From the NCBI RefSeq assembly GCF_000421605.1, contig NZ_ATXI01000002.1, positions 62,001 through 126,000 on the forward strand: a stretch of DNA of 64,000 nt. The letters are read 5' to 3'. This stretch comes from Thermodesulfobacterium thermophilum DSM 1276. GTDB lineage: Bacteria; Desulfobacterota; Thermodesulfobacteria; Thermodesulfobacteriales; Thermodesulfobacteriaceae. The notes under the pieces were generated by a model, which saw only the letters and a program-made list of their open reading frames with translations, ran no database searches and was not told the origin of the DNA. Numbering within the stretch: position 1 is the first letter of the stretch; every line of letters begins with the position of its first letter. The translations under genes were made by a program, and so were the position numbers. Below are positions 29,662 to 43,085 of this stretch, in pieces.

Positions 29662-30873
29662 TTGGTAGCTAATGGTCTTAAGGGGAGAAACATCCTTGTA
29701 GGGCTCACTGGGGGGATAGCTGTCTATAAGATCTGTGAGTTCATAAGAAAACTCAAAAATTCTGGAGCCAACGTTAAAGTAATCCTTTCTAAAGGTGCTG
29801 AAAAGTTTGTTACCCCTTTACTTTTGGCAAGTCTCTCTGGAGAAAAAGCTTATACTGACGAAGATTTCTTTAAACCAACCGGAGAAATTTTGCATATAGA
29901 CCTTGCCAAGTTTCCTGACGTTGTAATAATAGCACCTGCTACAGCTTCCTTTATGGCTAAACTTGCCTCAGGTCAGGCAGACGAGCTTTTACTTTCTACC
30001 CTGTTAGCCACCAAAAGCCCTGTATACATCTTTCCTTCCATGAATACTAACATGTGGGAGCATCCTGCTACCCAGAGAAATGTAGAAACCTTAAAATCAT
30101 GGGGATACAGGGTTTATGAACCTGCATCTGGGGCTCTTGCCTGCAATACCACAGGTAAAGGCAGGTTACCAGAGGTAGAAGAGATCTTTGAAACACTGCA
30201 AGCCCATTTTGTAAAAAAAGATATGTTAGGGCAAAAGGTTTTGATTACCGGAGGACCTACCAGAGAGTACATAGACGAGGTTAGGTTTATCACCAACGAT
30301 TCCTCTGGGAAAATGGCCTTTTTATTGGCTAAAGAGGCCTACTACCGAGGGGCTGAAGTATATCTTGTCTGGGGAGGAAAAGAACTTCCAGGTATCTTTC
30401 CAAGGATAAACGATTTTTTTGGAATACCTTATCCTAAGGTTTTTTCGGTATCTACCACCAAAGAAATGTTAGAAGTAGCTAAAACACTTTTTCCTAAGTG
30501 CAATTTGGCAATTTTCGCAGCTGCTCCATGTGATTTTAGACCAAAACAAACCCTGAAAGGTAAAATAAAAAAACAAGAAATTCTAACCTTAGAACTGGAA
30601 ATCACAGAAGACATAGCCAAAACCCTTTCTTCTCAAAAACAACCCAATCAGATAACCATAGGGTTTGCCTTGGAAACTCCAGAAAATTTAGAAAAATACG
30701 CCCTTCTCAAGAAAAAAGAAAAGAACTTCGATTTTATCATAGCCAATCCCATCAGCACCTTGTCTGCCGAAACCTCTGACTTTATCGTTTTCACTCCCAA
30801 AGACAAACTTGAGTTCAAAGAGGTTTCTAAGGCTTACTTAGCTAAGGTTTTGTTTGATTTAATCGGGGTGTAA
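29662..30873 (+). CDS. coaBC: Bifunctional phosphopantothenoylcysteine decarboxylase/synthetase
   Basis: CoaBC performs two steps of coenzyme A synthesis. The 403 residues show the flavin-dependent CoaC half (GLTGGIAVYKICEFIRKL at 13-30; PSMNTNMWEHPATQRN near 132; the substrate flap SGALACNTTGKGRLPE near 157) and the CoaB half (KVLITGGPTREYIDEVRFI near 192; AAAPCDFRP near 286). The start is TTG with GAGGAG upstream. Its last 40 bases overlap the convergent ahbD-like gene. Confidence 0.95.
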   Translation: MVANGLKGRNILVGLTGGIAVYKICEFIRKLKNSGANVKVILSKGAEKFVTPLLLASLSGEKAYTDEDFFKPTGEILHIDLAKFPDVVIIAPATASFMAKLASGQADELLLSTLLATKSPVYIFPSMNTNMWEHPATQRNVETLKSWGYRVYEPASGALACNTTGKGRLPEVEEIFETLQAHFVKKDMLGQKVLITGGPTREYIDEVRFITNDSSGKMAFLLAKEAYYRGAEVYLVWGGKELPGIFPRINDFFGIPYPKVFSVSTTKEMLEVAKTLFPKCNLAIFAAAPCDFRPKQTLKGKIKKQEILTLELEITEDIAKTLSSQKQPNQITIGFALETPENLEKYALLKKKEKNFDFIIANPISTLSAETSDFIVFTPKDKLEFKEVSKAYLAKVLFDLIGV

Positions 30874-31904
30874 GGGCATAAGGGTTCTTCTTCTAAATAA
30901 TCACCTGTAGCCTCATAGGCCCTGGCACGACACCCCCCACAAACCCTTATATATTCACATCTTCCGCATTTTCCCTTGTATTTAGAAAAATCTCTAAGAT
31001 TATTAAATACCTCTGAATTCTCCCAAACTTCCTTAAACGTCTGTTCTCTAAGGTTCCCACAAGGCACCTCTAAGTATCCACAAGTTTGTACTATCCCTAC
31101 ATGAGAAATAAAACAAAATCCAGTACCAGCAAGACAACCTCTGGTCATAGCATCAAGTCCAAAGTTTTCAACCGTCACCTCCTTTCCCTCTTTTTTAGCC
31201 CTTTGTCTTAAAATTCGATAATAAGTAGGGGCACAGGTAGCTTTAAGCTGAAGATTACACCTATCTCTTTGTTCGTAAAACCACCCTAAAATCTCTTCAT
31301 ACTTTTCTGCATTAATTCCACCTGTGGAAAGTTCCTTTCCTCTTCCTACTGGGACCAACAAAAAGATATGATGTGCCACCGCACCTAAGGATTTTGCAAG
31401 TTCATGTACCTTAGGGAGTTCTTCTAAATTTTGTGGGGTAATCGTGGTGTTTATTTGGAAAGGAACCCCCACTTTTTTTAAGTTTTCTATCCCTTTTAAA
31501 GCCCCTTCAAATGCCCCTGGAACTTTTCTAAAATTATCATGGCTTTCCGGGGTACTTCCATCAAGGCTGATACTAACCCTGGAAATGCCTGTTTCTTTAA
31601 TTTGTTGGGCTACTTCCTTGGTTATAAGAGTACCGTTGGTAGCAAGCACCGGTTTAAACCCTAAATCTATCGACCGTTTAGCTATCTGAAAAAGGTCTTT
31701 TCTTAATAAAGGTTCTCCGCCTGTAAGGATGATGATAGGCTCTGCCACCTCTTTTATTTCTTCAAGTATTCTGAAAATCTCTTCTGTGGTAAGTTCATTT
31801 GCATAAGGACCTTTAGAGGCTGCTGCCCTACAATGCACACAATCTAAATTACAACTTCTGGTAAGTTCCCAGGCAATAAGCCTTGGCTTAAATGTTTTTT
31901 CCAT
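30834..31904 (-). CDS. ahbD: Radical SAM heme synthase AhbD-like (SPASM)
   Basis: AhbD converts iron-coproporphyrin III to heme b in the siroheme-dependent pathway of sulfate reducers and methanogens. The protein begins KPRLIAWELTRSCNLDCVHCRAAA, with the radical SAM CxxxCxxC. It ends in an auxiliary-cluster region, GCLAGTGFCFISHVG and GKCGRCEYIRVCGGCRARAYEATGDYL cysteine-rich blocks, as in AhbD relatives. AhbC proteins start differently (as I recall). Start is taken at 31904 (MEKTFKP), because GAGGG lies before it, while the longer GTG start overlaps the phosphoesterase stop. It is the last gene of an operon headed by Fur and FeoA, consistent with iron/heme metabolism. A general tungsten/NirJ-type relative is the alternative. 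Confidence 0.72.
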   Translation of the reverse strand: MEKTFKPRLIAWELTRSCNLDCVHCRAAASKGPYANELTTEEIFRILEEIKEVAEPIIILTGGEPLLRKDLFQIAKRSIDLGFKPVLATNGTLITKEVAQQIKETGISRVSISLDGSTPESHDNFRKVPGAFEGALKGIENLKKVGVPFQINTTITPQNLEELPKVHELAKSLGAVAHHIFLLVPVGRGKELSTGGINAEKYEEILGWFYEQRDRCNLQLKATCAPTYYRILRQRAKKEGKEVTVENFGLDAMTRGCLAGTGFCFISHVGIVQTCGYLEVPCGNLREQTFKEVWENSEVFNNLRDFSKYKGKCGRCEYIRVCGGCRARAYEATGDYLEEEPLCPYTPIKSNKTLAK

Positions 31905-31915
31905 CCTTTTTACCC

Positions 31916-33082
31916 TCACATTTTATATCTTTCTCGTAAAAGAACTGCTCTACCTTCAGGCTGCTTTTCATTTTTTATGTTTATTAGTTCTATGATAACC
32001 ACATCAGGAGGAGTTAAAAACCTCATAGGAGGGCCTCCGGTCCCAACCCCTTTTGATACAAAAAGATAAGACCCCTTTCCCAAATATTTTAATCCCCTAT
32101 CAGTTTCGTATAAAAGTTTAACCAAAAAAGAGCCTATTCCTTTATATAGTCCTCCGTGGGTATGACCAGAAAGCATAAGGTTAAAACATCCGATGGTTTC
32201 TTTTTGAACCACCGGTTGATGTTTTAAAACTAACACAAACTTATCTCGAGGGATTTTACACAAAAAAGTGTTTTCATCAAAACCTGGACTACAGGCTTTA
32301 TAATAACGACAATCTCTATCGTCAAGACCAACTAAAACCAAAAAACTTCCTACTATCTCTGTTTCGTCTTTTAATACCTTAAACCCTGACTTTTCTATAA
32401 ACTCTAAAGCCTGTTTCCAGCCTCTGTAGTATTCATGATTTCCCATCACCGCATACTTTCCAAGAGGTGCGGTGATTTTAGCTAATTCTTCTACCAGATG
32501 GTCCTTTTTTCTCATGTTTCCATCAACTAAATCTCCGGTATTTACTATCAGATCTGGTTTTTCCTTTTCCCAGACTTTTTTAACCAGTTCAATCTTTTCT
32601 TGACCCAAAAAAGGCCCTAAATGCAGGTCAGAGATCTGCATGATCTTAACCTGACTTGCTTGAAGAGGAAGTTTATCTGTTCTTATCTGAAGCCTTATAA
32701 CCTCTAAACCAAGGGTTTCATAGTAACTGTATGCAGAAAACCCTAAGGCTAAAGGAACGGCACCTAACAAAATCTTTTTTGAAGTAAGGGCTTCCCAGCG
32801 AAAAACGATCTTTATTAAGTCAAAAACTACACAAAAAACGCAAAGATAAAGCACAAAACCGATCCACATAAGCACCAAAAAAGCCAACCACTTAGAAAAT
32901 AGAGGGTCTAAATATTGGTCAGCATACCTTATTAAAACCGGAGAGAATACAAGTAGGCTAAACAAAAAAACAAAAAATTTACGGAGATTACGTCTTTTAA
33001 CTAAGGGCCTAATCTTAGTAAGATAAAGATAGAGATAAATCAGAGAAAATACAGTAAAAAAGACTAAAAGAAACCAGAACAT
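31916..33082 (-). CDS. Membrane metallophosphoesterase (YkuE/YaeI-like)
   Basis: About four N-terminal membrane helices (1-130) precede a calcineurin-type phosphoesterase domain with MQISDLHLGPF near 149, VNTGDLVDG near 180, VMGNHEYYRG near 211, and LSGHTHGG near 306. Relatives with this layout include YkuE and YaeI-type enzymes, some of which act on phospholipid or UDP-diacylglucosamine substrates; the substrate here is unknown. It lies 12 bases after pstS and just before ahbD in the operon. Confidence 0.85.
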   Translation of the reverse strand: MFWFLLVFFTVFSLIYLYLYLTKIRPLVKRRNLRKFFVFLFSLLVFSPVLIRYADQYLDPLFSKWLAFLVLMWIGFVLYLCVFCVVFDLIKIVFRWEALTSKKILLGAVPLALGFSAYSYYETLGLEVIRLQIRTDKLPLQASQVKIMQISDLHLGPFLGQEKIELVKKVWEKEKPDLIVNTGDLVDGNMRKKDHLVEELAKITAPLGKYAVMGNHEYYRGWKQALEFIEKSGFKVLKDETEIVGSFLVLVGLDDRDCRYYKACSPGFDENTFLCKIPRDKFVLVLKHQPVVQKETIGCFNLMLSGHTHGGLYKGIGSFLVKLLYETDRGLKYLGKGSYLFVSKGVGTGGPPMRFLTPPDVVIIELINIKNEKQPEGRAVLLRERYKM

Positions 33083-33094
33083 AAAATCAAAATT

Positions 33095-34138
33095 TTATGG
33101 TTTTATCCCGTTTTCCTCCCAGTATTTATAAATTTTAGCTTTTACCTCTTCTGGAAGAGGAACATAAGCAAGCCTCACTGCTATAGCATCACCCTGTTTA
33201 AAGGCCCATTCAAAGAATTTAACCACTTCTTTGTTGACCTCCCCTTTCTCCTTAGATAGAAGGATATAGGTTAACCCTGCAATAGGCCAGGCTTTTTCTC
33301 CAGGGGCGTTGGTAATCCAAGCATAGAAATGTTTTTTTGGGTCTAAGTCTGCAGACTTAGCAGCTTCTTTAAAGGATTCTTCAGAAGGGGTAACCACAGC
33401 CCCTGAGGCATTTTTTAAACTTACCATAGAAAGTTTATTCTGTATAGCGTAAGCATACTCTACGTATCCAATCGTATAAGGGGTCTTTTTTACATAGTTA
33501 GAAACTCCTTCATTTCCTTTAGCACCTATTCCCGTTTTCCAGCTTACAGAAGTGCCTGTGCCTACCTCCTTCTTCCATTCAGGACATACCTGAGAAAGAT
33601 AATGAGTAAATATGGCTGTAGTACCTGACCCATCAGCCCTATAAACCACTAAAATTTCTTTATCTGGTAAAACCAAATCAGGGTTAAGTTTCTTTATCTC
33701 TGGATCGTTAAACTTTTTAATCTTACCTAAAAAGATATAACATAAAGTCTTTCCATCTAAAACCAGACTTTTTTCTTTAATATCCGGAATATTCACTACT
33801 GGAACCACCCCTCCAATAACCGTAGGAAATTGAATAAGTTTGTTTTCTTCCACCTCTTTAGGAGTTAAAGGCTTGTCAGTAGCGCCAAAATCAACGGTTT
33901 TTTCGATAATCTGTCTTATACCTCCTCCAGACCCTATAGATTGATAGTTTATCTTAATACCGGTAGACTTATAGTATTCGTTTGCCCAGTTAGCATAAAG
34001 AATGTAAGGGAAACTTGCCCCTGCTCCGTTAATGAATTTAGAGGGCTTGGCAGGCTTTTCCCCTCCCCCTTTACAACCATAAAGACCTAAAAGTACCACC
34101 CAAACAAAAAAAAGTCCTAATAAGGATTTTATCTTCAT
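33095..34138 (-). CDS. pstS: Phosphate-binding lipoprotein PstS
   Basis: PstS captures phosphate in the periplasm for the PstCAB importer. The 347-residue protein has a lipoprotein signal (GLYGCKGGG; the acylated Cys is near residue 22), the start of the mature domain NGAGASFPYILYANWANEYYK, the phosphate-contact segment VYRADGSGTTAIFTHYLS near 167, and GAKGNEGVSNYVKKTPYTIGYVEYAYA near 205. No pstC, pstA, pstB or phoU is nearby. Its start overlaps the PilZ-PyrE stop by 4 bases, so it is translated from the Fur-headed operon. Confidence 0.93.
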   Translation of the reverse strand: MKIKSLLGLFFVWVVLLGLYGCKGGGEKPAKPSKFINGAGASFPYILYANWANEYYKSTGIKINYQSIGSGGGIRQIIEKTVDFGATDKPLTPKEVEENKLIQFPTVIGGVVPVVNIPDIKEKSLVLDGKTLCYIFLGKIKKFNDPEIKKLNPDLVLPDKEILVVYRADGSGTTAIFTHYLSQVCPEWKKEVGTGTSVSWKTGIGAKGNEGVSNYVKKTPYTIGYVEYAYAIQNKLSMVSLKNASGAVVTPSEESFKEAAKSADLDPKKHFYAWITNAPGEKAWPIAGLTYILLSKEKGEVNKEVVKFFEWAFKQGDAIAVRLAYVPLPEEVKAKIYKYWEENGIKP

Positions 34139-35103
34139 AAGCTTACCCCCTGCATCTTTCTTTCATAAGCCTTAATGATTTCAGAGAAGGTAAAAATTGG
34201 CATGAATTCATATCCCTTCTCTTCTATTTTTTCCTTACCTCCTTCTTCTCGGTCAACCAACGCCATAACCTTTACTATCTTGATATTTTCCTTTTCCAAG
34301 GCCTCTATAGCCTTTATCACAGACCCCCCGGTAGTAACCACATCTTCTACCAAAACAACCTCCATGCCAGGCGAAACATTTCCCTCTATTTGTTTAGAGG
34401 TCCCATATTTTTTAGGTTCCTTCCTGATCAAAAGTCCTTCTAAAGGATAATCCTCTTCCTGTGCCTTAGAAAGAACAGCACAAACTATAGGGTCAGCCCC
34501 TATACTCATACCTGCAACTCCATCGACCCCAAGAAACCTTATTTCTTGCCAGAAGGCACAACCTATTAACTCAAAGCTCTTAGAATAAAGGGTAACCTTT
34601 CTGCAGTCTAAGTAATAAGGACTTTCTTTTCCGCTTGCTAAAACAAAAGGCTTATCTGGAGAATAAAGAAAAGCCCTTTCTAAAATAAACTCTAAAAGGG
34701 CATCCCTCTTGGCTTTTATACAGATTTCAATGACACTCTGCACTAAAGGATGAGCTTTCCCTAAAAACCTTCTTAGTTCCTTAAACGCTTTATCTTCAGA
34801 AGGAAGGTTATAATAAATCAAATTTTTTAGATGTTCAAAGCTTTCTGGAGAAATATAGGTAAACTTTATTCCAAACCCTTGTCCTGGAACCGTCCTAACA
34901 ACTATTCCTTTGATAAAAATCTTTACTTCAGGGCTTAAAAACAAAACCAATACCACCTCTTTATCAAGGTCAGGGCAGAAATCACTTTCTAAGAATACCC
35001 CTCCATAGCTTATGTCTTTAATCTTTGCTGAGTAACTTGCGTTTCCTATCAAAAACTCCACATCTACTGGGATGGGAATACGGGTGAATTGACGTTTTTC
35101 CAT
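34135..35103 (-). CDS. pyrE: PilZ domain fused to orotate phosphoribosyltransferase
   Basis: The N-terminal ~100 residues form a PilZ domain with both c-di-GMP-binding elements: R4-x-x-x-R8 (RQFTR) and D30-x-S-x-x-G35 (DISYGG). A helical linker (about 100-130) leads to a complete orotate phosphoribosyltransferase domain (about 130-322). That domain includes FVLASGKESPYYLDCRKVTL, a GVAGMSIGADPI segment, and the PRPP loop VLVEDVVTTGGS near 248-260. PyrE makes OMP from orotate and PRPP in pyrimidine synthesis. Free-standing PyrE is normally about 190-210 residues. Start at 35103 overlaps the feoA stop as TGATG. The fusion suggests second-messenger control or localisation of pyrimidine synthesis, but that is inference. 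Confidence 0.9.
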   Translation of the reverse strand: MEKRQFTRIPIPVDVEFLIGNASYSAKIKDISYGGVFLESDFCPDLDKEVVLVLFLSPEVKIFIKGIVVRTVPGQGFGIKFTYISPESFEHLKNLIYYNLPSEDKAFKELRRFLGKAHPLVQSVIEICIKAKRDALLEFILERAFLYSPDKPFVLASGKESPYYLDCRKVTLYSKSFELIGCAFWQEIRFLGVDGVAGMSIGADPIVCAVLSKAQEEDYPLEGLLIRKEPKKYGTSKQIEGNVSPGMEVVLVEDVVTTGGSVIKAIEALEKENIKIVKVMALVDREEGGKEKIEEKGYEFMPIFTFSEIIKAYERKMQGVSL

Positions 35104-35390
35104 CAGAGCCAACCCCACCTATGCTTTTTTTTCTTACAAGGCTTACATTCACATTCGGGCTTAACTACTTTACCTAAAAGATCTACCACTATATTCTTAG
35201 CTATGTCAAAACTTATAACCACTCTGGACGTATCGTTTTTAAGTAAAAAATTCCTTCCCCAGACCCTTAAGACCTCAAACACATCTCCTTTTCTTAATCC
35301 CATCGCCTCTATTTTTTTTATTATAGCATCTTCTCCTAAAAATTCCTCTATCTTTACCTTATCACCACATTTAGCCTCTACCAATAACAT
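35103..35390 (-). CDS. FeoA-domain protein with Cys-rich C-terminal tail
   Basis: Residues about 1-75 form an SH3-like FeoA domain (IIKKIEAMGLRKGDVFEVLRVWG; then VVISFDIAKNIVV). FeoA helps the FeoB ferrous-iron transporter. The last 20 residues add PECECKPCKKKKHRWGWL, with three cysteines and a basic patch that is not part of FeoA and could bind metal. No feoB is in the window. I place the start at 35390 (MLLVEAKCGDKV) after a GAGGGGG ribosome-binding site; the longer frame overlaps fur. It lies 16 bases downstream of fur, a pairing that supports iron-linked function. Confidence 0.82.
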   Translation of the reverse strand: MLLVEAKCGDKVKIEEFLGEDAIIKKIEAMGLRKGDVFEVLRVWGRNFLLKNDTSRVVISFDIAKNIVVDLLGKVVKPECECKPCKKKKHRWGWL

Positions 35391-35406
35391 AGAAAAAAAA
35401 CCCCCT

Positions 35407-35841
35407 CTATTCCTTATACCTACAACGACTACATATCCCGAAAATTTCAAGATGGTAGGTCAGAGGAGAAAAAGAAATTTTCTTCATCTCCTTTTTTAAA
35501 AGCTCATCTAATTTATTTTCTACCATCTCTTCTACTTGGTTACACTTTATACAGATAAAATGTAAATGAGGCTTTTTTTTCAAGGTTACTTCATAATAAG
35601 AACGACCACTTTGTCTGTAAACTTCTTGAATATAACCCCCTTCTATCAAAAGAGGAATGGTTCTATAAACTGAAGCTTTAGAAATTTTATGTCCCTTGTT
35701 CTTTAGACTAAGATATATATCCTCCACATCAAAATGGTCAGAATAACTTAAAACTTCTTTAAATATCTCTTCTCTTTCTGGGGTATATTTTAACCCCTTA
35801 GACTTGATAAATCTGCGAAAAGTTTCCACCTCTTCTAACAT
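35407..35841 (-). CDS. fur: Fur-family metal-dependent repressor
   Basis: The 144 residues show the Fur winged helix (KYTPEREEIFKEVL; HFDVEDIYLSLKNKGHKISKASVYRTIPLLIEGG). The C-terminal dimer domain has the HLHFICIKCNQVEEM and GICSRCRYKE zinc-site cysteines. Fur proteins repress iron-uptake genes when iron-loaded; a zinc or peroxide sensor (Zur/PerR) cannot be ruled out by eye. It heads an operon with FeoA, PilZ-PyrE, PstS, a phosphoesterase and AhbD, which favours iron. An AT-rich inverted repeat upstream could be its autoregulatory operator. Confidence 0.88.
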   Translation of the reverse strand: MLEEVETFRRFIKSKGLKYTPEREEIFKEVLSYSDHFDVEDIYLSLKNKGHKISKASVYRTIPLLIEGGYIQEVYRQSGRSYYEVTLKKKPHLHFICIKCNQVEEMVENKLDELLKKEMKKISFSPLTYHLEIFGICSRCRYKE

Positions 35842-36711: not shown

Positions 36712-36739
36712 TTGACAAAAAAAGAGAAAAGAGTAAATT
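36712..36739 (+). promoter_or_regulatory. tRNA-Lys promoter
   Basis: Consensus TTGACA (36712-36717) and TAAATT (36734-36739) are separated by 16 bases, with the mature tRNA starting 17 bases after the -10. The right-hand repeat has the same elements with a 17-base spacer. Confidence 0.75.
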
Positions 36740-36755
36740 TAAAAATATCATCTCT

Positions 36756-36828
36756 GGGCCGTTAGCTCAAACGGTAGAGCAATGGACTCTTAATCCATAG
36801 GTTGGAGGTTCGAGTCCTCCACGGCCCA
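36756..36828 (+). tRNA. tRNA-Lys (anticodon CTT)
   Basis: A 73-base cloverleaf is visible by eye: acceptor GGGCCGT/ACGGCCC, D arm GCTC...GAGC with G18-G19, anticodon stem ATGGA/TCCAT with loop CTCTTAA, and T arm GGAGG/CCTCC with loop TTCGAGT, then discriminator A. The anticodon CTT reads AAG lysine codons. No CCA is encoded. A T-run follows immediately and probably ends transcription. A damaged inverted copy lies at 42959-43031. Confidence 0.97.
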
Positions 36829-36864
36829 TTTTTCTTAAGCTATTCAATCACATTCTCTAATAAT

Positions 36865-37665
36865 TTAGTTGTCATCATAAATCTGTCCTTTATTAAACTC
36901 AAAAACCCTTAAAGTATTTTCTAAACTATTTTTCTTGCAAAACTTTTTAACATCAGCCCAAGAAATATAACCCCAATTTTCTATTCCCCAGTCTTTATTT
37001 TTACTGAATCTATAATTTTTCAAGGTTTCCTGATAAAATCTATTAAGCTCTGAAGTTTTACTTGGAACCAAAGCTACAAATAATGCTTCTTTACTATATG
37101 GAAGTAATAGTTCTGTTGCTGTTAAAACCACCTCGTTATTCCCAATTTTTCTGGGCAAACACTTTTTATGAGTTCTTTTATCTTGTTTTGATAAACATTC
37201 TGGGAAAACTACTCCTTCTTTTAATTGTTTTATACCTCCAGTTTGTAAAGCTTGAACCATTTTGACTTTAAAGTATAATTGAACAAACAAATTTGATCTT
37301 GATGAAGAACTTTTAGAGATTTTAGATGCCTCTTGATTATTTTCAATAAATAATGCTTCAAACTTATCAAACTCATCTTTTATATTCCAAGACGATTTTT
37401 GAAAAGTTTTTACTTTTGCTTCAATAAAAATAACTTGCTTTTTATCTTGATTATCAAGCAAAAGAACCACATCTGCATCGCCAAAATCAGAGAAAGATTG
37501 CTCAATTAATATTTTTGCTTCGGATATTTGAAAATCGACAGTTCGATATGGAAAAGACATCAAAGATAAAAACTGGTTAAGAAGATTTATACTTTTCTGA
37601 GAATACTTTATCTCATAAAATAGTGAATTAATAATGCCTCTTTCTGAGTACCCTATAATTTCCAT
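36865..37665 (-). CDS. PD-(D/E)XK-superfamily nuclease-like protein
   Basis: The 266-residue protein has a recognisable nuclease core: FGDADVVLLL (Asp63/Asp65) on one strand and VIFIEAKVK (Glu82-x-Lys84) on the next, the classic D...ExK arrangement, early in the chain. The C-terminal 180 residues (EVVLTATELLLPYSKEALFVALV; WGIENWGYISW) match no domain I know. A strong AAGGAGGAG ribosome-binding site precedes the ATG, so the gene looks alive. It stands alone between tRNA-Lys and decayed insertion sequences, inside the inverted-repeat segment, a typical setting for horizontally acquired defence or restriction genes. That role is inference; no methylase partner is present. Confidence 0.6.
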   Translation of the reverse strand: MEIIGYSERGIINSLFYEIKYSQKSINLLNQFLSLMSFPYRTVDFQISEAKILIEQSFSDFGDADVVLLLDNQDKKQVIFIEAKVKTFQKSSWNIKDEFDKFEALFIENNQEASKISKSSSSRSNLFVQLYFKVKMVQALQTGGIKQLKEGVVFPECLSKQDKRTHKKCLPRKIGNNEVVLTATELLLPYSKEALFVALVPSKTSELNRFYQETLKNYRFSKNKDWGIENWGYISWADVKKFCKKNSLENTLRVFEFNKGQIYDDN

Positions 37666-38653: not shown

Positions 38654-39757
38654 ATGAGTTTATCTAATCTTTATTTAACCAAACTGGAGACGATAGAAAA
38701 GAAGTTTGAGGACTTGGCGGCTAAACTTTCAGACCCTGAAATTATTTCAGACCCCTCTGTTTATGCCAAGCTTGCCAAGGAACATTCCGAACTTACAGAG
38801 ATTGTATCTGCTTTTAAAGAATACAAAAAAGTTCTTAAGGAGATAGAAGAAAACAAAGCCATCATAGAAGAAGAAACTGACGAGGAACTGGTAGATTTAG
38901 CTAAAGAAGAATTAAAGATTTTAGAAGAACGTTTAGAGGAACTGGAAAACTTGCTTCCCATACTTCTTCTTCCTAAGGATCCAAACGACGAAAAAAATGT
39001 TATCTTAGAAATCAGGGCTGGCGCAGGAGGAGAAGAGGCAGCTCTTTTTGCTGCTGAGCTCTTAAGGATGTACCAGAGGTATGCTGAAAGAAAAGGCTGG
39101 AAGTTTGAGGTCCTTGATGCCAACGACACCGGACTGGGTGGTTTTAAAGAAGTTGTGGCCAAAATAGAAGGAAAAGGGGCTTATTCTCGTCTAAAGTATG
39201 AAAGTGGGGTACATAGGGTACAAAGAGTACCTATTACTGAAAGTTCTGGAAGGATTCATACCTCTACGGTAACGGTAGCTGTTCTTCCTGAGGTAGACGA
39301 GGTCGATATCGACATCAACCCTGATGAGCTTAAGATTGAAACCATGCGTGCAAGTGGACATGGAGGACAACACGTAAACAAAACAGAAAGCGCGGTAAGG
39401 ATTACCCATATTCCCACTGGCATCGTGGTCACCTGTCAAAACGAAAGAAGTCAGCATCAAAACAAAGCTACCGCGATGAAAATCTTAAGGGCCAAACTTT
39501 ATGAGCTTGCTCAAAGGCAACAACATGAAAAAATCCAAAAAGAAAGAAAAGCTCAGGTAGGCACCGGAGAGCGCTGCGAAAAGATAAGAACCTATAACTT
39601 TCCTCAAAACCGGGTCACTGACCATCGCGTCGGTATCACCATCTACAACTTGCCAGAGGTCCTTGACGGAGACTTAGACGAGTTTATAGATGCTCTGATT
39701 GCCCATCACAGAGCAGAAATGTTAAAACAAGAAGAAAGTCTCAGCATGGCAGCCTAA
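38654..39757 (+). CDS. prfA: Peptide chain release factor 1
   Basis: RF1 ends translation at UAA and UAG. The 367-residue protein carries the catalytic GGQ loop in [20 protein letters not shown] near 235-254, preceded by [17 protein letters not shown], and the RF1-type stop-recognition domain lies before it. The family-typical downstream prmC (methylates the GGQ glutamine) is not next in line; instead an Mth938-domain gene follows 21 bases later. It forms a two- or three-gene unit with rpmE. Confidence 0.97.
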
Positions 39758-40145: not shown

Positions 40146-41396
40146 TTAGTTCCAACTCCAGAGATTTTCTCTGTTATAAGGCTTAGAAACTGTGGGTTGT
40201 TCTGTTTGGGTAAGGTTCGGTCTTTCCTGCAATTCCTGAGAATAGGTTTGAGGCTTTCCGGTATATCCCTGTGGTTGAGTTTCAGAAGGTGTTGGTTGAG
40301 GTTGATAAATTGGGGGAGGGGTGTTTGGTAAAGTAGTAGGATAAGAAGAGGGGGTTTGAGTTTGGGGGGAAGGTGGAGTATAAGGTTGGGGGGGCAGTTG
40401 AGGTACTTGGATAACCTGTGTCTGATATCCCTGTGGAGCCTTTTCTTTTTTCTCTTTTATAAAAGGAAACTGAGAGAGAAACTTGGAAAGTATCCCCTCT
40501 TCCTCTTCTTGATAATAGTAATATGGAGAAGCAGAGTAAGGATAATATGGAACTCCTCCATAATACCCAGGATAAGGTGCTGGTAATCCAGAGGTTGCGT
40601 TGGTTTGATTTGAAGAGGAAGATTTACGGTTAGTTTCTTCGTCTTCAGCCCAGCCAACAGTTCCCTTAGTAACGTCTATTACCAACCCTTTAGTAAGAGA
40701 CTCTTCTACATCTACATCTGTAAAGCCTTTAGCCCTTTTTACCTTAGGCTTAGATTCACCTGTACGAGGAGGGAAAAGATAGGGATAATAGTAGTAGTAT
40801 CCTCTCTCTGGATGTTCTTTGCTTATACCATAAGAAGACATGGCATACATAGGTTCAGCACGATAAAAATCTTCCTCTGTACCTTCTATGTATACCTTTG
40901 CCTTAAAGGCAAAACGCGTAAGCTGAGGGATAATCTCAGAAACACCCTTTAACTCCTGGAAAAACTGAACTGGCTTTTTAGGAGAGGTTAAACTAAGCAT
41001 TTGAGCATCTATGCTTACCGCTTCTCCTAAAACCGTAACACTTCCCCAGATCACGTAATCTACATTAAACCTTTGCCCAAGGGATTGAGCTGTTTCTTTG
41101 TTGATTTTTTTTACTTCTTTTACTACCCCTTTTACCAACTCAGGGTCAACTACCTCTATTTTATTAGGAGCAAACAACCTGCTAACCAGCATCTCAGGGA
41201 TGGCTTCCTTCAAATAAGATAAATCTCTCTCTGCATAAACGTCAAAAGGTAGGACCAAAACCCTTTTTACTGTCCCATTATCTTTAATCTCTTCAGCCTT
41301 TAATGAAAAATTCTCCAAACATAAAAAAACTCCAAACAAACTGAACAATACAATATTTATCACGATTTTTGGGAAAAAATTGGTCACTTTTTTCAT
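40146..41396 (-). CDS. TolB-N/CsgG-like exported protein with Pro/Gln/Tyr-rich tail
   Basis: A signal or anchor segment (about 10-34) leads into a domain (about 43-175: VKRVLVLPFDVYAERDLSYL, KEAIPEMLVSRLF, ETAQSLGQRFNVDYVIWGSV). This resembles the TolB-N/CsgG-type domain that in related bacteria often precedes FG-GAP propeller repeats. Here the second half (about 180-416) is low-complexity instead: YYYYYPYLFPPR, PYYPYSASPYYYYQEEEE and a long Pro/Gln/Thr-rich tract. Such tails often mediate wall or protein contacts. Function unknown. It is convergent with the Mth938-domain gene, with a 13-base gap. Confidence 0.7.
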   Translation of the reverse strand: MKKVTNFFPKIVINIVLFSLFGVFLCLENFSLKAEEIKDNGTVKRVLVLPFDVYAERDLSYLKEAIPEMLVSRLFAPNKIEVVDPELVKGVVKEVKKINKETAQSLGQRFNVDYVIWGSVTVLGEAVSIDAQMLSLTSPKKPVQFFQELKGVSEIIPQLTRFAFKAKVYIEGTEEDFYRAEPMYAMSSYGISKEHPERGYYYYYPYLFPPRTGESKPKVKRAKGFTDVDVEESLTKGLVIDVTKGTVGWAEDEETNRKSSSSNQTNATSGLPAPYPGYYGGVPYYPYSASPYYYYQEEEEGILSKFLSQFPFIKEKKEKAPQGYQTQVIQVPQLPPQPYTPPSPQTQTPSSYPTTLPNTPPPIYQPQPTPSETQPQGYTGKPQTYSQELQERPNLTQTEQPTVSKPYNRENLWSWN

Positions 41397-42949: not shown

Positions 42950-42958
42950 ATAAAAAAA

Positions 42959-43031
42959 TGGGCTGTGGAGGACTCGAACCTCCAACCTATGGATTAAGAG
43001 TCCATTGCTCTAACGTTTGAGCTAACGGCCC
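42959..43031 (-). tRNA. Second tRNA-Lys (CTT), probably decaying
   Basis: The anticodon arm and T arm are identical to the copy at 36756, and the length is the same 73 bases. Two changes harm it. Position 68 is A instead of G (base 42964), leaving a C5-A68 mismatch in the acceptor stem. G19 of the D loop is T (base 43013), removing the G19-C56 contact that locks the D and T loops. The promoter looks intact, so it may be transcribed but poorly folded. It is likely a tRNA pseudogene. Confidence 0.8.
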
Positions 43032-43085
43032 AGAGATGATACTTTTAAATTTACTCTTTTCTCTTTATTTTGTCAAGGCAGGTTT
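42959..43085 (-). repeat. Right copy of inverted tRNA-Lys repeat
   Basis: This is the reverse-complement partner of 36703-36828, including the TTGACA/TAAATT promoter (17-base spacer here, 16 in the left copy). The repeat ends 20 bases from the topA stop codon. Confidence 0.92.

Follow-up and report, generated by a model that had tools for sequence, protein, structure and literature searches.

We found that a 64,000-nucleotide stretch of DNA from Thermodesulfobacterium thermophilum DSM 1276, hereafter the window, encodes a PilZ domain and an orotate phosphoribosyltransferase (OPRT, the product of pyrE) in a single polypeptide, and the best overall explanation of this architecture, one that we hold with about even confidence, would be control of the OPRT by c-di-GMP in cis. 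The original prediction had placed the fusion in one reading frame, and both its coordinates and its frame proved correct: the gene is a single minus-strand ORF in which both domain profiles exceed their cutoffs (Table 1). If translation began instead at a GTG at position 35118, the protein would gain five residues (MGLAL) and its gene would run into the end of the FeoA-domain gene. All 21 fusion proteins identified match both Pfam PilZ and TIGR00336, and the recurrence of this domain pair in 21 separate genomes indicates that the pairing is not due to chance. An assembly error or a one-off fusion was likewise ruled out by these 21 genomes, which differ in the genes surrounding the fusion.

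Table 1. Features of the fusion gene and its immediate neighbors, in window coordinates
Feature	Position	Strand	Remarks
pstS-type phosphate-binding protein gene	33095..34138	-	Next downstream; its ATG overlaps the TGA stop of the fusion gene (34135-34137) as ATGA
PilZ-PyrE fusion gene	34135..35103	-	322 aa plus stop, from ATG; in 21 genomes
Orotate phosphoribosyltransferase domain, residues 132-317	34153..34710	-	TIGR00336; VIA-align; starts of unfused PyrE
PRPP-binding motif VLVEDVVTTGGS, residues 250-261	34321..34356	-	Conserved positions across fusions
OPRT flexible catalytic loop RKEPKKYGT, residues 227-235	34399..34425	-	Alignment with E. coli PyrE and human UMPS
C-terminal helices of ancestral PilZ protein and short junction, residues 98-131	34711..34812	-	Merges into OPRT helix 1
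PilZ domain, residues 2-97	34813..35100	-	PF07238; modeled alone, matches PA4608/MapZ
DxSxxG motif D30-I-S-Y-G-G35 (S32)	34999..35016	-	Alignment of fusions
RxxxR motif R4-Q-F-T-R8	35080..35094	-	Both Arg constant
FeoA-domain gene	35103..35393	-	Next upstream; a TTG start could extend it to 35450
Fur-family regulator gene	35407..35841	-	Upstream of feoA

The full-length fusion was modeled with AlphaFold as a monomer on 35 homologues, giving a mean pLDDT of 90.3 and a pTM of 0.84. The model contains a PilZ barrel, helices spanning residues 86 to 99 and 103 to 117, and a long helix of residues 119 to 144 that runs into the OPRT fold. In this predicted structure, the C-terminal helix of the PilZ half is continuous with the first OPRT helix across the junction.

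The OPRT half was described in the original prediction as a complete enzyme with a normal PRPP loop, a description that our analyses bear out. TIGR00336 matched residues 151 to 308 with 133.4 bits, against a curated equivalog-domain cutoff of 106.8 bits, and VIA-align of residues 127 to 320 to solved OPRTs gave Z scores of 22.9 for 2P1Z (Corynebacterium diphtheriae), 22.2 for 5HKI (Mycobacterium tuberculosis) and 20.1 for human UMP synthase (UMPS; 2WNS). Like these three proteins (Z 20 to 23), the fusion has a whole OPRT fold and a PRPP motif, but they carry no receptor domain, and UMPS is fused instead to OMP decarboxylase. Both the catalytic loop and the PRPP motif are present, and E253, D254, T257, T258, G259 and S261 of VLVEDVVTTGGS show no variation among the 21 fusions. 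Where E. coli PyrE has a histidine in the loop (RKEAKDHG), all 21 fusions have a tyrosine. The same YGT is found in human UMPS (in the 2WNS alignment) and in the unfused PyrE of a relative (L049). Thus, the tyrosine is an ordinary variant that gives no sign of inactivation, and we rejected the idea that the His-to-Tyr change renders the OPRT inactive.

Statements about the host genome as a whole rest on profile searches of an assembly rated 100% complete. The original prediction had left the existence of another pyrE to be checked; the fusion is the only PyrE above the family cutoff, and the weaker matches were ComF-like, HPRT and PyrR proteins, all below it. The genome also contains the OMP decarboxylase gene, pyrF. 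From its standing as the sole PyrE and the presence of pyrF, the fusion protein would be expected to convert orotate and PRPP to OMP. Uracil salvage may be available through PyrR, and therefore, while the fusion is the only recognized de novo OPRT, the cell need not rely on it exclusively for UMP.

The PilZ profile PF07238 matched residues 2 to 97 with 61.5 bits, against a Pfam gathering cutoff of 22.5 bits. Since the VIA-align list for the whole protein was filled by OPRT folds, the PilZ half was modeled (pLDDT of 86.0, pTM of 0.77) and searched separately. Foldseek recovered the PilZ β-barrel, with PA4608/MapZ as the first match, followed by c-di-GMP–bound VCA0042, BcsA, MotI and others. PA4608/MapZ from Pseudomonas aeruginosa (PDB 2L74, 5XLY and 5Y4R) is the nearest solved PilZ protein by both sequence and fold, with a profile E value of 1.7e-08 over 115 residues and a Foldseek E value of 4e-06, and the similarity includes the C-terminal helices.

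Canonical PilZ domains bind c-di-GMP through RxxxR and [D/N]xSxxG motifs. As originally predicted, both are intact in the window gene, as R4 to R8 and D30-I-S32-Y-G-G35. Neither RxxxR arginine varies among the 21 fusions, and two stand-alone relatives have both as well. These arginines account for two of only five invariant positions among the 99 PilZ columns; G76, F77 and S88 are also invariant in the PilZ half. [D/N]xSxxG is preserved in the window gene and throughout the Thermodesulfobacterium fusions (13 of 13). It is kept in three of the seven fusions of a second genus (g2) and altered in the other four, those of G003 and G007 among them, and both the fusion of a third genus (g6) and the stand-alone PilZ relatives have DxAxxG. 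The PilZ half evolves faster than the OPRT (mean pairwise identities of 47.5% vs. 67.4%). Its dN/dS over nine pairs was 0.08 to 0.16 in most, largely around 0.1, and 0.29 in one. These values, which for the nearest pairs approach those of the OPRT, indicate that the PilZ half, like the OPRT, is under purifying selection.

The host also has machinery for c-di-GMP synthesis and degradation, as shown by 21 GGDEF and 6 EAL matches, and GGDEF domains occur in all 30 genomes of the family, hence in every fusion-bearing one. In a tested PilZ case, replacing the RxxxR arginines was reported to abolish c-di-GMP binding, and the same source describes some PilZ-fold proteins that do not bind c-di-GMP (PMC11800159). 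The retention of the motifs, taken with their canonical role and the effect of the RxxxR replacements, makes it quite probable that c-di-GMP binds the RxxxR/DxSxxG site of the PilZ half. Judged from these motifs, the Thermodesulfobacterium fusions are likely to bind c-di-GMP, with less certainty for those of g2 and g6; because DxSxxG is altered in four of the seven g2 proteins, some fusions may have lost control by c-di-GMP.

The fusion was found in 21 of the 30 family genomes, distributed over three genera. A search among close relatives returned only T. hveragerdense DSM 12571 (NZ_AUIT01000018.1), whose protein is 97% identical to that of the window. Within the genus of the window (g1), 13 of 14 genomes carry the fusion, and the remaining genome, which gave no match, is 70% complete; all seven g2 genomes and the sole g6 genome carry it as well. 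PyrE is unfused in seven relatives, comprising the one g4 genome and six g5 genomes, and no PyrE match was obtained in one g3 genome (64% complete). In a sample of 395 genomes from the phylum, every match covering both halves, among the matches listed, came from g1, g2 or g6, and a very divergent PilZ half could escape this search. Outside these genera, some matches in the sample lay in long open frames or extended past a stop, as might be expected of a fused or neighboring PilZ; 12 such places were inspected and contain no PilZ, and in G156 and G346 an ordinary PyrE ORF follows the stop. The plasmid collection gave matches to the PyrE side only, none reaching 80% of the query.

In a phylogeny built from the OPRT half, all 21 fusions grouped in one clade (support 100/100), and the unfused PyrE proteins from two g5 genomes were its sister group (90/87). 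Within the sampled genomes, this topology points to one fusion event, with no loss among the 21 descendants. Five g4 and g5 genomes contain, elsewhere in the genome, a match 35 to 41% identical to fusion residues 1 to 117 or 1 to 118. Where read, this match is a stand-alone PilZ protein of 123 aa that ends in LGEA, as does the linker of the fusion, and unfused PyrE starts align at fusion residues 129 to 133. Two near-complete proteins have thus been joined end to end. The remaining PilZ proteins of the host genome are of other types, and descent of the fused PilZ from a MapZ-like stand-alone PilZ protein is the best explanation. Separately, a 617-aa ORF (L038 in G008, 992-2845) encodes a methyl-accepting-chemotaxis-like protein whose C terminus is a PilZ domain of the type found in the fusion, C-terminal helices included, and frames of 653 to 660 aa with PilZ matches were also seen in G004 and G002.

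We propose a mechanism in which the N-terminal PilZ receptor would act through its C-terminal helix, which joins it to helix 1 of the only OPRT recognized in the cell. c-di-GMP, probably dimeric as in other canonical PilZ proteins, would wrap the RxxxR segment onto the barrel, and the ligand-bound barrel would then shift against the OPRT. OPRT works as a dimer in which a loop of the partner subunit completes the active site (a feature also found in the title of 1ORO), so that a barrel rigidly fixed to helix 1 could change dimer assembly or loop closure. Given this architecture, we consider it an evenly balanced proposition that c-di-GMP binding moves the PilZ barrel with respect to the OPRT dimer and thereby alters OPRT activity or assembly. 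The broader proposal, that the activity of the sole OPRT is under direct c-di-GMP control and that a lifestyle signal would thereby gate de novo UMP synthesis, also derives from the architecture and is slightly more tentative. The effect could be inhibition, resembling that of MapZ on CheR1, or activation, which would fit the greater UDP-sugar need of sessile cells.

That a PilZ domain can act on an enzyme is supported by two known systems. The MapZ structures were solved with c-di-GMP and include a c-di-GMP–bound MapZ–CheR1 complex (5XLY), and in the cellulose synthase BcsA, c-di-GMP binding is reported to move a gating loop (PMC12564702). Like MapZ, with which it shares RxxxR and D-x-S at ∼25 to 27% identity, the PilZ half would act on an enzyme; however, MapZ is a separate protein that acts in trans on a chemotaxis methyltransferase, whereas here PilZ is fused to a biosynthetic enzyme. 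The covalent attachment of PilZ to a catalytic part is shared with BcsA, but BcsA carries out membrane polymer synthesis, while the output of the fusion would be soluble pyrimidine synthesis and its PilZ domain is N-terminal.

The relationship to MapZ also bears on a different reading, that c-di-GMP governs the location or contacts of PyrE rather than its turnover, with the bound PilZ domain docking on another protein and so recruiting UMP synthesis. MapZ is an adaptor that works by protein–protein contact, the fused PilZ retains its own C-terminal helices, and surface residues such as G76, F77 and S88 are invariant beside the arginines. Against this, the neighbors of the gene vary among genomes and no candidate partner is linked to it, and we consider docking unlikely, although it fares best among the alternatives to control in cis.

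Somewhat less likely is that PilZ keeps its ancestral job on another target and that PyrE is the passenger of a chance fusion, the two functions being independent. The occurrence of the same PilZ type on its own in g4 and g5 genomes implies a function that predates the fusion, and among the genomes with the fusion, none gave a match to a separate protein of this kind. Splitting should be easy if the halves were independent, yet the fusion has never split in 21 descendants spanning three genera and several gene orders.

The decay of DxSxxG in four of seven g2 fusions, and its replacement by DxAxxG in g6, would be compatible with a PilZ half that has become a structural part, contributing heat stability or oligomerization, and is no longer a c-di-GMP switch, a role that might suit the thermophilic Thermodesulfobacterium hosts. 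We judge this a shade less probable again, because RxxxR is constant in all 21 fusions and every one of the 13 Thermodesulfobacterium fusions keeps [D/N]xSxxG, and because an unfused PyrE suffices in the related g4 and g5 genomes of the family. Production of PilZ and OPRT as separate proteins, through internal initiation or cleavage, is highly improbable for the window gene, which has no ATG in the junction, has lost the ancestral PyrE start Met and offers just TTG 95 and GTG 121 in codons 60 to 170, both without a Shine–Dalgarno-like sequence, although most g2 fusions carry an ATG in frame at alignment column 162, three codons past the old PyrE start, and internal initiation may thus operate in g2.

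With control of the OPRT in cis as the favored reading, its novelty can be delimited. The known targets of PilZ receptors are motility, polymer secretion and transcription. PilZ–enzyme fusions are known; pyrimidine synthesis would be a new output for them. We found no report of the PilZ–PyrE domain pair in the open-access literature; subscription papers or domain-architecture databases may list it without discussion. The original prediction held that direct second-messenger control of de novo UMP synthesis would be new. c-di-GMP control of a metabolic enzyme as such has a precedent in the Streptomyces glycogen-debranching enzyme GlgX, reported to be allosterically regulated by direct c-di-GMP binding (PMC9530166). 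Unlike the fusion, GlgX has no PilZ domain, binds c-di-GMP at a subunit interface and belongs to another pathway; such direct control is therefore not wholly without parallel, albeit outside PilZ.

What distinguishes the present case is the attachment of the receptor to a core biosynthetic enzyme with no recognized second copy. The joining of the only recognizable UMP-pathway OPRT to PilZ suggests that c-di-GMP tunes pyrimidine synthesis. In E. coli, pyrimidine supply is reported to act on the biofilm program, linking UMP synthesis and biofilm (PMC3281075); the fusion, if the proposal is true, would be the reverse arrow, from messenger to pyrimidine supply. The family supplies natural controls, with intact and altered motifs and unfused PyrE, and the object of study is one soluble thermophilic protein.

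The order Fur–FeoA–PilZ/PyrE–PstS is a conserved neighborhood in most of the window's genus, and the fusion persists across differing gene neighborhoods between genomes. The pstS-type gene is likely on the same transcript as the fusion. This minus-strand run (33095-35841) thus combines an iron regulator with a pyrimidine enzyme and a phosphate-binding protein. The original prediction had also tied the fusion to an exopolysaccharide operon, a link that our analyses weaken. Between 21606 and 27702 the window encodes TPR proteins together with a polysaccharide deacetylase and a PgaC-like glycosyltransferase, but a convergent gene on the opposite strand (29662-30873, +) intervenes before the pyrE run, and the two sets of genes are not one operon. 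The PgaC-like cluster does adjoin the fusion in the 97%-identical T. hveragerdense; it was not found within ∼10 kb of the fusion in six other genomes (G009, G010, G013, G015, G006 and G029). Because gene order is not conserved, we rejected a functional link on that ground. A need for UDP-sugars is a plausible biochemical tie to pyrimidine supply, one without conserved linkage.

Two further features of the window were observed. Two genes downstream of pstS lies a gene for the radical-SAM heme b synthase AhbD (30834-31919, −; 556 bits against a cutoff of 500), which points to a siroheme-based heme pathway. On the other side of the run, a 117-nt inverted repeat (36717-36833, +, and 42954-43070, −; 97% complementary) contains two facing tRNA-Lys(CTT) genes. 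The ∼6.1 kb between them includes a peptide-chain-release-factor gene (38654-39757) and two ORFs with no Pfam match at 1e-5 (36865-37665, −, 266 aa, and 40146-41396, −, 416 aa), and recombination between the repeats could flip this segment.
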